A stretch of 63,244 bases of DNA from Thiohalocapsa sp. (GTDB lineage Bacteria; Pseudomonadota; Gammaproteobacteria; Chromatiales; Chromatiaceae): positions 1 through 63,244 of the forward strand of contig JAIPFF010000029.1 of the NCBI GenBank assembly GCA_021736785.1, written 5' to 3'. The first letter of the stretch is position 1. The number at the start of each line of letters is the position of its first letter. The notes below the pieces were generated by a model. That model ran no database searches, was not told the origin of the DNA, and was given only the letters and a program-made list of their open reading frames with translations. The position numbers and the translations under genes were made by a program. Below are positions 13,058 to 17,826 of the stretch, piece by piece.

Positions 13058-13504
13058 CTATTTGTAAGCGCCGACGCCGCAGAAGAAGCCTTCGTCGTTC
13101 GTCATGACGTAGCTCGTCTTTTCCTTGACCTCATCGGTGCCGGGGTAGGGCCAGTTGTAGTCAACCCAGCCTTCGCCGCTGTCCTGCGCGACGGCAATCA
13201 TGTCCTTGAACAACTCGTCGCCGTACTTGTTGAAGTCGAGCAGGTTCTTGCCGACCAGCTCGGGCTTGACGGCGTGGGACAGCATGACGCCGTCCATGTC
13301 CATGCAGAAGACGTAGAGATCCTTCTCGCGGAAGTCGCCGTCCTCGGCAGCGAAGGCGTCGAAGGCGGCTGCAGCACCCATCTCGTTCACGGCCTGTTGT
13401 GCCCTCTCCGACATCGCCTTGGCTTCATCGGGACTTGCCATTTCGTCGGCGATGGCGCTTGCGGAAAAGACCAAGGCGGCGGCGGCGATAATCGCTTTTC
13501 TCAT
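13058..13504 (-). CDS. Periplasmic single-Cache domain protein
   Basis: 148 residues with a clear Sec signal peptide (MRKAIIAAAALVFSASAIA) and one small ligand-binding Cache domain. Family marks are YVFCMDMDGVMLSHAV, VGKNLLDF, GEGWVDYNWPYPG and the final FFCGVGAY. Such free-standing domains are secreted sensors or binding proteins of unknown ligand. A good ribosome binding site (GAGAGGAAA) precedes the ATG. There is no adjacent kinase or chemoreceptor. It diverges from amtB across a shared regulatory region. Confidence 0.85.
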   Translation of the reverse strand: MRKAIIAAAALVFSASAIADEMASPDEAKAMSERAQQAVNEMGAAAAFDAFAAEDGDFREKDLYVFCMDMDGVMLSHAVKPELVGKNLLDFNKYGDELFKDMIAVAQDSGEGWVDYNWPYPGTDEVKEKTSYVMTNDEGFFCGVGAYK

Positions 13505-13806
13505 GCCTGATTTCCTCTCTCTCTTTGTGGTTAGGGGACGCCGAAGTTAACCGATGCACCGGCCGCGGTCCAGCATCTCGGCCCTGGCTGGCTATGGAGG
13601 TGAGCGGATCCCGCGGCGCTTGCACTCTCGTGAAGCGTAGTCGCATTTTTTTGGTGCGCGCTTGCCGCCTGGTTTGCGGGCTTCGCGGATCGACGGCAGA
13701 GGCAAGCCGTTGAGATTCGGCGTGTATGTCGATGCACCAGGATCTTTCAGGTAACGGGCATGGAAACTGCTCTGCTGCACCGGTTTTGGTCAATAGGCGA
13801 CGAGTC
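13505..13806. other. Divergent regulatory region between the Cache gene and amtB
   Basis: 302 bp with no credible gene. It contains a candidate sigma-54 promoter for amtB (listed separately) and GATGCACC sequences near 13552 and 13731 that resemble NtrC half sites. An imperfect GTTA/TAAC inverted pair lies near 13532-13550. Confidence 0.4.
13756..13771 (+). promoter_or_regulatory. Candidate sigma-54 (-24/-12) promoter of amtB
   Basis: GGGCATGGAAACTGCT has the obligatory GG-N10-GC spacing (GG at 13757-13758, GC at 13769-13770) and matches most of TGGCACG-N4-TTGCA. It would start transcription near 13782, 25 bp before the amtB ATG. Nitrogen control of amtB by NtrC and sigma-54 is well known. 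Confidence 0.4.
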
Positions 13807-15012
13807 ATGCAGAGTTATCAGTCCGGTACGGACGTCCTGTTTTTGTTGATCGGTGCCGTAATGGTGCTGGCCATGCACGCGGGCTTTGCCTTCCTGGAAG
13901 TGGGCACCGTGCGAGCGAAGAATCAGGTCAATGCGCTGTCGAAGATCCTCAGCGATTTCGCGGTGTCGACCATCGGCTATTTCTTCTTCGGCTTCAGCAT
14001 CGCCTATGGCGTGGATTTCTTCAGCGGTGCCGCCGCATTGCAGGACAAGAACGGTTACGAGCTGGTCAAGTTCTTCTTTTTGCTGACCTTTGCGGCAGCG
14101 ATCCCGGCGATTGTCTCCGGTGGTATTGCGGAGCGGGCCAAGTTCTACCCGCAGTTGCTGGCGTCCCTGGTGCTGGTCAGCCTCGTCTATCCGTTTTTCG
14201 AAGGCATCGTCTGGAACGGCAACTTCGGTGTGCAGGCCTTGATCGAGCGCTGGCTCGGCGCCGGATTCCACGACTTCGCGGGCTCGATCGTCGTGCATGC
14301 GATGGGCGGCTGGATTGCGCTCGCCGCCGTGTTGTTGCTGGGTCCGCGCAGCGGCCGTTACCGCAAGGACGGGGGCATTACCGCCCATCCGCCGTCGTCG
14401 ATCCCGTTTCTGTCTCTCGGCGCCTGGACGCTGACGGTGGGCTGGTTCGGCTTCAACGTTATGTCGGCGCAGAGCGTCGGCGCCGTCAGCGGCTTGGTTG
14501 CGGTGAACTCGTTGATGGCGATGGTCGGCGGCATTCTGGCCGCGTTGATCGCCGGCAAGAACGACCCCGGCTTCCTGCATAACGGACCGCTGGCGGGCCT
14601 GGTGGCGGTCTGTGCCGGCTCCGACATCATGCATCCGCTAGGCGCACTGTTCGTCGGCGCCTTCGCCGGTGCGTTGTTTGTCTACACCTTCACGCTGACC
14701 CAGAACAAGTGGCGCATCGACGACGTGCTCGGTGTCTGGCCGCTGCATGGTCTATGCGGTCTTTGGGGCGGCATCGCCGCGGGGATCTTCGGCATGGAGA
14801 TGCTCGGCGGCCTCGGCGGCGTCACGTTCATGGCGCAGCTCGCGGGCAGTCTGCTGGGTGTTGCAGTGGCGCTGGTCGGCGGGTTCGCCGTCTACGGCAT
14901 CGTCAAGGCGATCATGGGCCTACGCCTGACGGAGGAAGAAGAGTATCTGGGGGCGGACCTCTCCATCCATCGCATCACCGCCGAGCCCGACTACAACCGT
15001 GGTGAAGTCTGA
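13807..15012 (+). CDS. amtB: Ammonium transporter (Amt family)
   Basis: Trimeric inner-membrane ammonium channel. The 401 residues give about eleven membrane helices. Family motifs include AGFAFLEVGTVRAKN, VVHAMGGWIAL with the first pore histidine, GWFGFNVMSA and WPLHGLCGLWGG with the second. The ATG at 13807 starts just before the first helix. An upstream ATG at 13726 would add a polar stretch and lie upstream of the candidate promoter, so it is rejected. The glnK/glnB partner is not adjacent. The C-terminal tail (EEEEYLGADLSIH) keeps the PII-contact type sequence. Confidence 0.95.
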   Translation: MQSYQSGTDVLFLLIGAVMVLAMHAGFAFLEVGTVRAKNQVNALSKILSDFAVSTIGYFFFGFSIAYGVDFFSGAAALQDKNGYELVKFFFLLTFAAAIPAIVSGGIAERAKFYPQLLASLVLVSLVYPFFEGIVWNGNFGVQALIERWLGAGFHDFAGSIVVHAMGGWIALAAVLLLGPRSGRYRKDGGITAHPPSSIPFLSLGAWTLTVGWFGFNVMSAQSVGAVSGLVAVNSLMAMVGGILAALIAGKNDPGFLHNGPLAGLVAVCAGSDIMHPLGALFVGAFAGALFVYTFTLTQNKWRIDDVLGVWPLHGLCGLWGGIAAGIFGMEMLGGLGGVTFMAQLAGSLLGVAVALVGGFAVYGIVKAIMGLRLTEEEEYLGADLSIHRITAEPDYNRGEV

Positions 15013-15022
15013 TATCCATGCC

Positions 15023-15040
15023 CGGGCGAGGCATCGCCCG
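15023..15040 (+). terminator. Hairpin downstream of amtB
   Basis: CGGGCGA (15023-15029) pairs with TCGCCCG (15034-15040) around a GGCA loop, 10 bp after the amtB stop. There is no U-tract. Confidence 0.45.
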
Positions 15041-15163
15041 ATGAAGCGCCGATCGCCGGCGCCCGATCCGGCAGCGTAGCCGGCGGGCTCATCCTGTAGG
15101 CTATTGGGGCGATGGCCGGCGGGCGCGCGTGACAAATGCCGAGCGCTTGGCGCCCGCGAGGCG

Positions 15164-15967
15164 TCAGCGACGGCTACCCAGGATGATGTCGCGCGCACGC
15201 AGGTCTTCGAGCAGTGCCTGGCCGGCCGCGAGCACCTTCTCCGGGTCGGGGTGGGCCAGCTCCGCGGCGATGGTCTGCAACGCGCTTGCCCCGGTCCGAT
15301 CCGGGTGCGCCTCGAGGAGTTGCAGCAGGCGCTGGGTAACCGCGTTGATCTGCATGAACTCGACGCCGTCGCTTCGGTTGCGGTAGACGATCAGATGGGT
15401 CGGTTCGCCGTCCGGCTCGCTCGGCTGGTACTCGGGGCCGATGCGATGCACCGGATAGCGGTAGCTGAGTTGCCAAGCAACCGGCGAGACCAAGGGCACG
15501 CCTGTCAGAAGGTCGCCTGCGGGGTCGGCGAGGGTGTCGTCGGCCTCGTCCTCGCTGGTTCCGACGGCGAGCTCCACCCACTCGTAGTGGGCCAGCTCCA
15601 GCATGAACGGCGGGTCGTCGGCGTGGGCCTCGCGCTCATGGGCGAGGTAGTCCAGCAATTCCTGCGCAAGCTCGGGAAACAGGGGCGTCGAGCAACGATG
15701 GCGGACAAGGAAGTCGCGAACCAGGCCCTGCCAGCACTCGTCCCCGAGAATTTTGTACAGCACCGGGAAAGCGGTCTGCAGCAGCCCGGAGATATTGTTG
15801 AAGAACAGATCGCGATAAATCGCCATCCGCCGGTCTTCGATATCGGCCGGGGCGGGGCGATGCTCCGGGTCGCGAATATGACCGGCAAACGCCAGTTGTG
15901 CGGCGATGAAGCCCGGTGCAGGCGCGGGCGCCGGCGCGTCGGTAGTCGGTCGACGATGCTCAGACAT
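15164..15967 (-). CDS. hvfC: HvfC-type RiPP maturation partner (DUF2063)
   Basis: 267 residues. The N-terminal DUF2063 part (to about residue 130) carries [24 protein letters not shown], quoted in part; LARDF-like VRDFLVRH and [13 protein letters not shown] follow. The C-terminal part is beta-rich and ends in an alpha-helical winged region. In the known family the protein binds the MNIO enzyme and presents the precursor peptide. The start overlaps the hvfB stop by 8 bp, showing tight coupling. Convergent with amtB. Confidence 0.88.
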
Positions 15968-16841
15968 CGGCCGTGCGGGCGCGCGAGCGCGGCGCATGTC
16001 GGCGTTGCATCGCGGCGATGTCCTGTACCTCGGCCGCCAGCGCATCCACCGAAGGAATATTGAAGTCACGCTCGAGCAGCGTCGGCAGCACACCGAAGCG
16101 CGCATAAGCGCGGTCGAGTAGATCCCACACCGGGGCGATGACATCGGCGCCGTGGGTGTCGATCCGCAGATCCTCGGCCTCGACGTAATGGCCGGCGACA
16201 TGACAATAGACCACCCGCTCGCCGGGCAAGGCGCTCAGGAACGCGTGCGCGTCGTAGCCGTGGTTGATGCTGTTGACATAGATGTTGTTGACATCGAGCA
16301 GCAGGTCGCAATCGGCCTCCTGCAGCACCGCGTTGACGAAGTCGATCTCGGTCATCTCCTGTGCCGGTGCGGCGTAATAGGAGACGTTTTCCAGGGCAAT
16401 GCGCCGTTCGAGGATGTCCTGCACCTGCCGCACGCGCTCGGCGACATGGTGAACCGCCTCGGCCGTGAACGGGATCGGCATCAGGTCGTAGAGGTGCCCG
16501 TCATCGGAGCAGTAGCTCAGATGCTCGGTGTAGGCGCGAATGCCATGCCGATCGAGAAATTCCTTGATGCGTCTGACAAACTCCGTATCCAGTGGCGACG
16601 GCGAGCCGATCGATAGCGACAGGCCGTGGCAGACGAAGGGATGGCGCTCGGTCATGGCGCTCAGGTGCCGGGCATAGCGGCCTCCGACGCCGATCCAGTT
16701 CTCCGGGGCGATCTCCCAGAAGTCGACCGTATCCGGTGGCTGCTCGGCCACGGCGCCGATAAACGAGCGCCGCAGACCGAGACCGGCGCCATGAACGGGA
16801 TGGGCAGCGCGTTCGAGCGAGTCCGTTACCGTGTTTTTCAT
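15960..16841 (-). CDS. hvfB: HvfB-type MNIO (DUF692) RiPP maturase
   Basis: Multinuclear non-heme iron-dependent oxidase of 293 residues with a TIM-barrel fold. Likely metal ligands are in HGLSLSIG (His72), TEHLSY (Glu106/His107), ENVSYY (Glu151), LDVNNIYVN (Asp183), NHGYD (His194), CHVAGH (His214/His218), IDTHG (Asp228/His230) and LLERDFNIP (Glu257). Family members oxidise cysteine in a partner peptide to oxazolone/thioamide or thiooxazole. It lies 30 bp after hvfA and overlaps hvfC, so the three genes form one operon. Confidence 0.93.
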
Positions 16842-16871
16842 GGCGATTTACGTGCTAGGCGTCAGGCTGGA

Positions 16872-17150
16872 TCAGCCCTTGTCGCCGCCGCACTTACCCT
16901 CGCCGCACTTACCTTCGCCTTCACCCTTGTCGCCGCCGCACTTGCCTTCGCCTTCACCCTTGTCGCCGCCGCACTTACCCTCGCCGCACTTGCCTTCGCC
17001 TTCCGCGCCGGCCAAGAGCATATAGCCGCTGTCGAGCTGGCTGGCGCCGAACGGGTTCTCCGCGGCGTTGGCCACGTTGACGGCCGACAGGGTACCGACC
17101 AAAGCGGCACCGACAATGGCTGCGGCGGGGGTCATGGTCTTCTTGGACAT
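16872..17150 (-). CDS. hvfA: HvfA-type Cys-rich RiPP metallophore precursor (bufferin-like)
   Basis: 92 residues: a Sec-type signal peptide (about residues 1-30, ending VANAA), a short spacer, and a low-complexity tail with five EGKCG motifs (Cys55, 60, 71, 82, 87) separated by Gly/Asp/Lys/Glu linkers. In Haemophilus-type HvfA peptides the EGKCG cysteines are modified by the MNIO enzyme and the exported product handles copper. GAGG lies 7 bp before the ATG. The next genes are the two maturation enzymes. No HvfD (DoxX-like) gene follows. Confidence 0.93.
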   Translation of the reverse strand: MSKKTMTPAAAIVGAALVGTLSAVNVANAAENPFGASQLDSGYMLLAGAEGEGKCGEGKCGGDKGEGEGKCGGDKGEGEGKCGEGKCGGDKG

Positions 17151-17265
17151 GGATGTATCCTCTAACTGAAAAACTGTGGTGTGTCGTCGCGCGGCGCCTT
17201 ATCGCTGCCGACCCTTCGCATGTCGGGCCCCGGCGCCGCCGCATTGATAGCACATGCTTTACACG

Positions 17266-17296
17266 ATTAAAACAGTGGGTTTTTGTCTCGTGTCAA
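17266..17296 (-). promoter_or_regulatory. Candidate promoter of the hvf operon
   Basis: Read on the minus strand there is an exact TTGACA -35 (17291-17296) and an extended -10 TGT-TTTAAT (hexamer at 17266-17271). The spacer is 19 bp, longer than ideal. It lies 115 bp upstream of the hvfA start. Confidence 0.4.
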
Positions 17297-17376
17297 CGCA
17301 GCGCCATCGCCCATTAGAGACCCGAGCGGACGGTTGGTTCTTTCACGCCGATGCGCTTTTTGTCGTGCGTCGCCCT

Positions 17377-17826
17377 TCATTTAGGCCCGCGACTGCCGCC
17401 GCCGTGCTTTTTGATGCACTTCAGGTAGGCCTTTTCGTCGAGATCGCGTGCGTCTCGTTGCATGCGCCACATGGCCTCGCCGAGGCACTCCATGATCCGA
17501 TGCTCGGCCTCGTGGGTGTCGCCGAGGCAATCGCGCAGGATCCGCCCGTAGAGCTGGCGCATGCCGCGGGGACCGTCCGTCGTCACCTGATCCTGCACGG
17601 CCAAATGCAGGGCCATGTGCAGGAACGGATTGGCTTCGCCGTGGTGCGGCAGCCAGTCTTGCGCCAGCGCCGGCTCGCCGGCCTGCAGCAGCGGGTGGTA
17701 CTCCGGGTGGCGCTTCGCTACTTCGACGATTTGCAGGTGCAGCGGCTCCAGGGGCTCGCCGCCCTGGAAGCGGCGCCATGCCTCGAGGAAGACGCCGCGC
17801 ATGGCCGTGCGGTCTTGGCTGAACAT
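17377..17826 (-). CDS. DUF1841 family protein
   Basis: 149 residues, soluble and mostly helical. The pattern begins MFSQDRTAMRGVFLEAWRRF, then IVEVAKRHPEYHPLL, NPFLHMALHLAVQDQV and HEAEHRIMECLGEAMW. This matches the DUF1841 family, whose biochemical role is unknown. It follows nth on the same strand by 139 bp, a pairing seen in other proteobacteria. The His/Glu-rich helices could bind metal, but that is only a guess. The longer upstream frame has no supporting ribosome binding site. Confidence 0.85.
   Translation of the reverse strand: MFSQDRTAMRGVFLEAWRRFQGGEPLEPLHLQIVEVAKRHPEYHPLLQAGEPALAQDWLPHHGEANPFLHMALHLAVQDQVTTDGPRGMRQLYGRILRDCLGDTHEAEHRIMECLGEAMWRMQRDARDLDEKAYLKCIKKHGGGSRGPK

Follow-up and report, generated by a model that had tools for sequence, protein, structure and literature searches.

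The window (the whole stretch of 63,244 nucleotides of Thiohalocapsa sp. DNA that was analysed, from the contig called C62 here) carries the operon hvfABC on its minus strand, with a DUF1841 gene upstream and an ECF-type promoter-like element in the intergenic region between them:

17826-17377, minus strand: DUF1841 gene, upstream of hvfA, a conserved neighbour
17314-17344, minus strand: conserved ECF-type promoter-like element, GAAAGAACC-N12-GGGTCTCTAA, in the DUF1841/hvfA intergenic region
17150-16872, minus strand: hvfA, open reading frame for a 92-aa precursor with a Sec-type signal (by eye), the linker ENPFGASQLDSGYMLLAGAEG and a core with five EGKCG motifs (NF050137)
16841-15960, minus strand: hvfB, MNIO (DUF692) maturase of 293 aa (PF05114, NF003818, structure 3BWW, alignment of 42 HvfB sequences)
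15967-15164, minus strand: hvfC, DUF2063/RRE partner of PME type 1, 267 aa (PF09836, PF22106, NF050145)

Thirty nucleotides separate hvfA from hvfB, and hvfB overlaps hvfC by 8 nucleotides. HvfB scores 361 bits against PF05114 and 452 bits against NF003818 ('HvfB family', cut-off 360); its closest solved structure is 3BWW (E 4e-75). HvfC matches PF09836 and PF22106 and scores 326 bits against NF050145 (cut-off 142), and is thus an HvfC-family protein; its closest solved structure, 3DEE, is a weak match (E 9e-4). HvfA, for which a Pfam search gave no match, lies above the cut-off of NF050137 ('KCGExKCG_twice'; 33.7 against 19.5) and below that of the narrow HvfA equivalog NF050188 (30.9 against 95 bits), which counts against the preferred reading given below, passing NF050188 being no requirement for the EGKCG captophorin/oxazolin class. 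The open reading frames and the family cut-offs bear out an earlier note on this DNA, which had described hvfABC as a 92-residue precursor with five EGKCG motifs, an MNIO enzyme and a DUF2063 partner, tightly spaced.

Comparison of 42 loci found the HvfB gene next to HvfC in every one and EGKCG-type precursors before hvfB in most of the readable loci, and the hvfABC arrangement is therefore not due to chance. In 13 of the 42, the window included, nth and the DUF1841 gene both accompany hvfBC at the locus, which suggests that hvfBC with these neighbours occupies an old chromosomal site; one other genome of the genus (G007) keeps the order on both sides (lexA, nth, DUF1841, hvfABC and a gene for a 260-aa membrane protein). 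Elsewhere in the window (13058-15012), a gene for a small secreted single-Cache-domain protein is divergent to an ammonium transporter gene.

Each of the five Cys of HvfA lies within an EGKCG motif, and the DNA of the core is a tandem array with units of 15, 33 and 48 bp. HvfA has exactly five Cys in this genome and in four others of the genus (G001, G005, G008, G009), six in G003, four in G007 and two in G002 (the last read from the alignment of upstream regions). Between the signal peptide and the core, 29 of the 32 correctly placed precursors have the pattern F..[LIM]xxG[YF] (FGASQLDSGY in the window; the count leaves out the row of locus L040, which has a wrong coordinate), a segment that may be recognised by HvfC.

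Product class and chemistry

Thirteen His, Asp, Glu and Asn residues are invariant across the 42 HvfB sequences (H72, H107, E151, N152, D183, N185, N186, H194, H214, D228, H230, E257 and D259), those of the metal-site motifs among them. Residue 24 is R or K in all 40 sequences that reach that position, residue 25 is R in 36 of these 40, and F260 is F in 41 of 42. By motif, FonB being outside the alignment, R24, R25, D259 and F260 of HvfB correspond to Arg15, Arg16, Asp249 and Phe250 of FonB, published as residues of EGKCG selectivity and catalysis (PMC13097082); so judged, R24/R25 and D259/F260 occupy the EGKCG-selectivity and catalytic-base positions.

With an EGKCG-repeat precursor directly before the MNIO gene (its signal peptide judged by eye), an HvfB-type MNIO above the equivalog cut-off that has the metal-site motifs and the EGKCG-selectivity residues, and a DUF2063/RRE partner (PME1), the hvfABC of the window is confirmed as an ordinary representative of an established RiPP class (oxazolin/captophorin). 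By analogy, its product is very probably an exported copper-binding peptide of known kind. The family scores and the HvfB residues thus support the earlier view of an operon for an exported, Cys-modified and probably copper-binding RiPP, two details of which call for correction. Oxazolone/thioamide had been given as the established modification; the products of EGKCG peptides, oxazolin itself included, are now reported to be 5-thiooxazoles (PMC13097082; PMC13419390). The peptide had also been called a bufferin, a name that in these sources properly covers Buf1 and Buf2, the EGKCG family being named Buf_EGKCG/oxazolin (PMC12452194) or captophorin (PMC13097082); HvfA, with five Cys and a match to NF050137, is neither a DUF2282 protein nor a 6/12-Cys precursor of the bufferin kind.

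Reasoning from these characterised systems, HvfC (RRE) would present HvfA, its signal peptide still attached, to the diiron MNIO HvfB, which would carry out a four-electron oxidation of the Cys at each of the five Lys-Cys-Gly sites to give 5-thiooxazole. Each modified Cys is reported to lose 4 Da (PMC13419390), and the predicted mass shift of HvfA is -4 Da per site, at most about -20 Da. Modification is placed before export because HvfBC is described as preferring full-length HvfA to HvfA lacking the signal sequence (PMC13419390); the modified peptide would then be exported by Sec and sequester Cu(I) in the periplasm.

Like the window, the H. influenzae oxazolin operon hvfABC(X) encodes a signal-peptide precursor with EGKCG repeats, an MNIO and an RRE/DUF2063 partner, but its hvfX lies in the operon and its HvfA contains three AEGKCGEGKCG units with six Cys in all, whereas in the window's genome hvfX is unlinked and the five EGKCG motifs are irregularly spaced. 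The fontiphorin genes fonABC and the captophorins share the EGKCG precursor, and the FonB residues Arg15/Arg16 and Asp249/Phe250 have equivalents in HvfB; fontiphorin has seven modified sites (PMC13097082), whereas HvfA can have at most five. The bufferin genes bufABC (Buf1, DUF2282 type), to which the literature gives a role in copper stress, have the same order of precursor, MNIO and DUF2063 protein; the bufABC of this genome, on contig C66, differs from hvfABC in its precursor and in its BufB, which scores 328 bits against NF050167 (cut-off 310) and carries L and N in place of R25 and F260.

This second, bufferin-type locus (L071:4174-10317, on its own contig, C66) encodes an NDH-2-like flavoprotein, a four-Cys precursor resembling DUF2282 proteins by eye but matching no NCBIfam model, BufB, a BufC-like DUF2063 protein, a Lactamase_B_2 protein and an ECF sigma factor. 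The gene overlapping that of the sigma factor encodes a Cys-containing protein with a single membrane segment as judged by eye, which has no family match and is anti-sigma-like by position.

HvfX encoded at an unlinked locus

The earlier note had found no HvfD and no sigma factor or anti-sigma gene beside hvfABC and had called the set minimal. The absence of HvfD and of a sigma factor holds for contig C62, on which there is neither a DoxX match nor a match to the Sigma70_r4_2 profile; it does not hold for the genome, which has DoxX matches on contigs C47 and C34 and four ECF genes. The C47 protein belongs to NF050144 ('HvfX family Cu-binding RiPP maturation protein'; 239 bits, cut-off 80) and the element before hvfA points to an ECF factor encoded elsewhere, so that 'minimal' does not describe the set. 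The DoxX-like partner of the system would thus be supplied by the unlinked HvfX locus.

Among 93 genomes (this one included), HvfC above the cut-off is found in 38 and HvfX in 26; HvfX is present in 24 of the 38 genomes with HvfC and in 2 of the 55 without (Fisher p 1.9e-10, the relatedness of the genomes being such that p-values overstate independence). By hand count, HvfX is linked to the hvf locus in 15 of these 24 genomes and unlinked in 9, and one of the unlinked cases is in a single-contig genome (G036). The C47 HvfX shares 81-82% identity with the stand-alone copies of G005 and G001, 65-68% with the hvfABC-linked copies of the genus, and up to 73% with linked copies elsewhere. No ECF-type element was found before the unlinked HvfX gene of this genome; just 5' of it (L072:4154-5320), the reading frames repeat one unit many times, by eye a repeat array.

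In G059, the unlinked HvfX has an EGKCG precursor of its own alongside, and none was found at the hvfBC locus of that genome. Such pairs of precursor and HvfX (L081:4740-5943 in G059; L088:4530-5706 in G065, a genome only 75% complete) lie on contigs without an HvfC match, and their precursors are candidates for modification in trans.

A conserved element upstream of hvfA

The element emerged as a shared block when hvfA upstream regions were aligned. It is 31 bp long, spans -194 to -164 from the hvfA ATG, and by its form is a putative promoter. The pattern GAAAGAACC-N14-GTCTCTAA, one mismatch at most being allowed, was found in 4 of the 10 genomes of the genus (this one included), in each as a single copy 5' of hvfA, and the reversed pattern occurs in none of the 10. 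Nineteen fixed bases are kept in these four genomes despite different neighbours, which are nth and DUF1841 in the window and a linked HvfX gene in the other three. Thus, a conserved ECF-type promoter-like element stands before the first gene of hvfABC, as in an ECF-controlled operon.

A slightly longer pattern, with up to three mismatches, gave 10 matches and no control matches. These precede hvfA (4), a DoxX gene (2; contig C34 of this genome and G001), a gene for an exported protein of about 100 aa (3; C66:37374 in this genome, G005 and G009) and an NDH-2-like flavoprotein gene (1; G009). With a second consensus, the 93 genomes gave 21 matches against 10 control matches; of the 21, 14 precede genes of these four kinds and the other 7 resemble background. 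A weight matrix built from nine sites before genes other than hvfA scored at least 24.5 in 6 of 32 hvfA upstream regions, the matrix being partly dependent in that its sites were found using the hvfA site. All six lie at -194 to -217 with a spacer of 12, and they belong to four genomes of the genus and to two other genera; the hvfA element of G091 was scored by the matrix and found by no pattern. The runners-up scored 15.5 (G050) and 13.3 (G001, the weak element of its hvfA), G024, G046 and G072 scored lower still, and the best control scored 12.6. This test covered the HvfB loci in which hvfA was found and readable with a fixed start, and so omitted 10 of the 42 (L014, L040, L048, L053, L055, L058, L064, L065, L074 and L075).

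The DoxX gene on contig C34 (L073/L101), a second one beside that of HvfX, has no NCBIfam HvfX match and has the three-mismatch copy of the element just upstream; G001 (L096) has a similar arrangement. The exported protein (L098, L099, L100, L109, L156, L104) has a repeated GNPD and a C-terminal PDLSY or PDIGY and no Pfam or NCBIfam match; the element precedes its gene in five genomes of the genus, and G018, of another genus, has what by eye is a divergent counterpart. As for the flavoprotein, a homologue (72-73% identical) adjoins bufABC in this genome, with no element match of 12 or more before its gene; the element-bearing copy lies 5.5 kb from a bufABC set in G009 and 1.6 kb from a stand-alone HvfX in G005.

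Nearer to hvfA lies a second block, GCTATCAA, at -101 (window 17244-17251, minus strand), perhaps a proximal promoter; the other five of the six genus genomes aligned have TGTTATC or TGATATC at -111 to -117. Two further readings of the region were rejected: a MerR/CueR-type arrangement of TTGACA and spacer 5' of hvfA, noted by eye, was not conserved in the alignment, and no known structured RNA was found, the window matching nothing in Rfam at gathering thresholds.

Candidate sigma factor and regulation in trans

There are 16 matches to Sigma70_r4_2 in this genome, of which four are ECF factors (on contigs C12, C1, C80 and C66) and twelve were read as response regulators; a factor missed by that model would not appear in this count. 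Seven of the 10 genomes in the genus have the ECF factor of the type on C80, namely all six that have any copy of the element and G006, which has none, and three genomes with hvfABC (G002, G003 and G007) have neither this ECF factor nor a copy of the element. Among 30 genomes with hvfABC, the hvfA element is present in 6 of 11 with the C80-type factor and in 0 of 19 without it (p 7.8e-4, an optimistic value, four of the six element-bearing genomes being of one genus). Of the genomes with the factor, G001, G050, G024, G046 and G072 have the low scores before hvfA given above, which counts against the link, as does G006. The table was filled by hand at an ECF threshold of 140 bits, with G015 (132) and G089 (119) counted as negative, and covers genomes that were among those searched, which leaves out L076 and L077. 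The C80-type gene lies 0.5-2.3 kb from the element-bearing gene of the exported protein in four genomes (G001, G004, G005, G009), and it is followed by a receiver-domain gene in this genome and, as judged by eye, in that of G004. A search upstream of the C80-type ECF genes themselves gave no element.

The element upstream of hvfA suggests that an ECF factor encoded elsewhere controls the operon in trans, and it is probable, by this pattern of co-occurrence, that the C80-type factor is the one that recognises it. A less likely choice is another ECF factor of the same genome, whether that on C66 beside bufABC, that on C1, which we take to be ECF26-like, or the RpoE-like one on C12. A weak element (16.6) does lie 186 nucleotides before the C66 ECF gene, and the element resembles the promoter GGAATAA-N15-CGTCTCTAC reported for RpoE4 (ECF26) of S. 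meliloti (PMC6180224). Five of the other nine genomes of the genus carry the element, however, and none of the nine has a close relative of the C66 factor (matches of 26-31%, and one 43-residue fragment at 44%) or a match to the C1 factor at E 1e-20; both were rejected as the shared regulator, an argument that covers these two factors.

It is also conceivable, though improbable, that the product is as proposed and that a sigma-70 extended -10 promoter nearer hvfA drives the operon, the distal element being a relic or serving another factor. The conservation of the TGTTATC/TGATATC block would fit this, since it extends to two genomes that lack a strong distal element (G001 and G003), but a scan of 14900-17500 with the sigma-70 consensus gave no site, the distal element keeps its fixed bases amid changing neighbours, and further copies precede other genes with a common functional flavour. 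The ligand or stress, too, might be other than copper, with the EGKCG peptide serving against gold, hypochlorite or sulfur species. We consider this doubtful: the H. influenzae cluster is reported to be under RpoE2, a hypochlorite-response factor (PMC7907618), a related Legionella MNIO/DoxX operon is described as responding to gold as well as copper, and DoxX proteins have been tied to oxidative and sulfur stress, but modified EGKCG peptides, fontiphorin and gonophorin, bind copper in mass spectrometry (PMC13097082), and copper binding is also described for bulbicupramide, which derives from a precursor of this kind.

The preferred reading, to which we give a probability of roughly 80%, is that of a captophorin/oxazolin hvfABC operon with HvfX from an unlinked locus and a distal ECF promoter read by the C80 factor. 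Transcription would most likely start at the distal ECF-type promoter about 165-195 nucleotides before hvfA, read by the ECF factor whose gene on C80 precedes the receiver-domain gene, with elements of this kind also standing before the second DoxX gene and the gene of the small exported protein.

Control of such clusters by an ECF factor in trans is known in kind. The hvf/doxX cluster of H. influenzae is under RpoE2, encoded elsewhere in its genome (PMC7907618); the window's genome differs from that case in that the candidate sigma factor gene is followed by a receiver-domain gene. In Neisseria, an ECF factor also governs a related set of genes (NMB2140-2145: DoxX-like, three hypothetical proteins, rpoE and anti-sigma), which differs from that described here in having the sigma and anti-sigma factors in the same operon and the promoter GTMAGBWTT-N12/13-CGTCTAAH (PMC2893595), and RpoE7 of S. 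meliloti is reported to control DUF692/DUF2063 genes with yet another promoter (PMC6180224). What appears to be new here, as far as sequence can tell, is the element upstream of hvfA, its recurrence and its tracking by a pair of ECF and receiver genes; a description of the C80-type factor, its promoter and its gene set as a regulon was not found in the open PMC literature.

Somewhat better than even, in our judgement, are the chances of a broader proposal, that hvfABC in this genus and some related genera is part of a small regulon of the ECF factor whose gene is paired with that of a stand-alone receiver-domain protein, with the promoter GAAAKAAYCC-N11-GGGTCTCTA. The regulon would cover a DoxX protein, the GNPD/PDLSY-type exported protein of about 100 aa and, in some species, the flavoprotein whose homologue lies beside bufABC, and the captophorin would be a single branch of a response to envelope stress in which EGKCG peptides, DoxX proteins and perhaps bufferins take part together, HvfX doing so in trans.

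Thus, this genome appears to encode, at other loci, the membrane partner and the stress-type sigma factor that seem to be missing from this cluster, and for clusters of this kind a local gene list alone misleads. Through the 31-bp element the operon is tied to one specific sigma factor, to a second DoxX gene and to an exported protein that is uncharacterised, and the element offers a direct way of finding the signal by which EGKCG peptides are induced and of learning what HvfX and DoxX proteins do.
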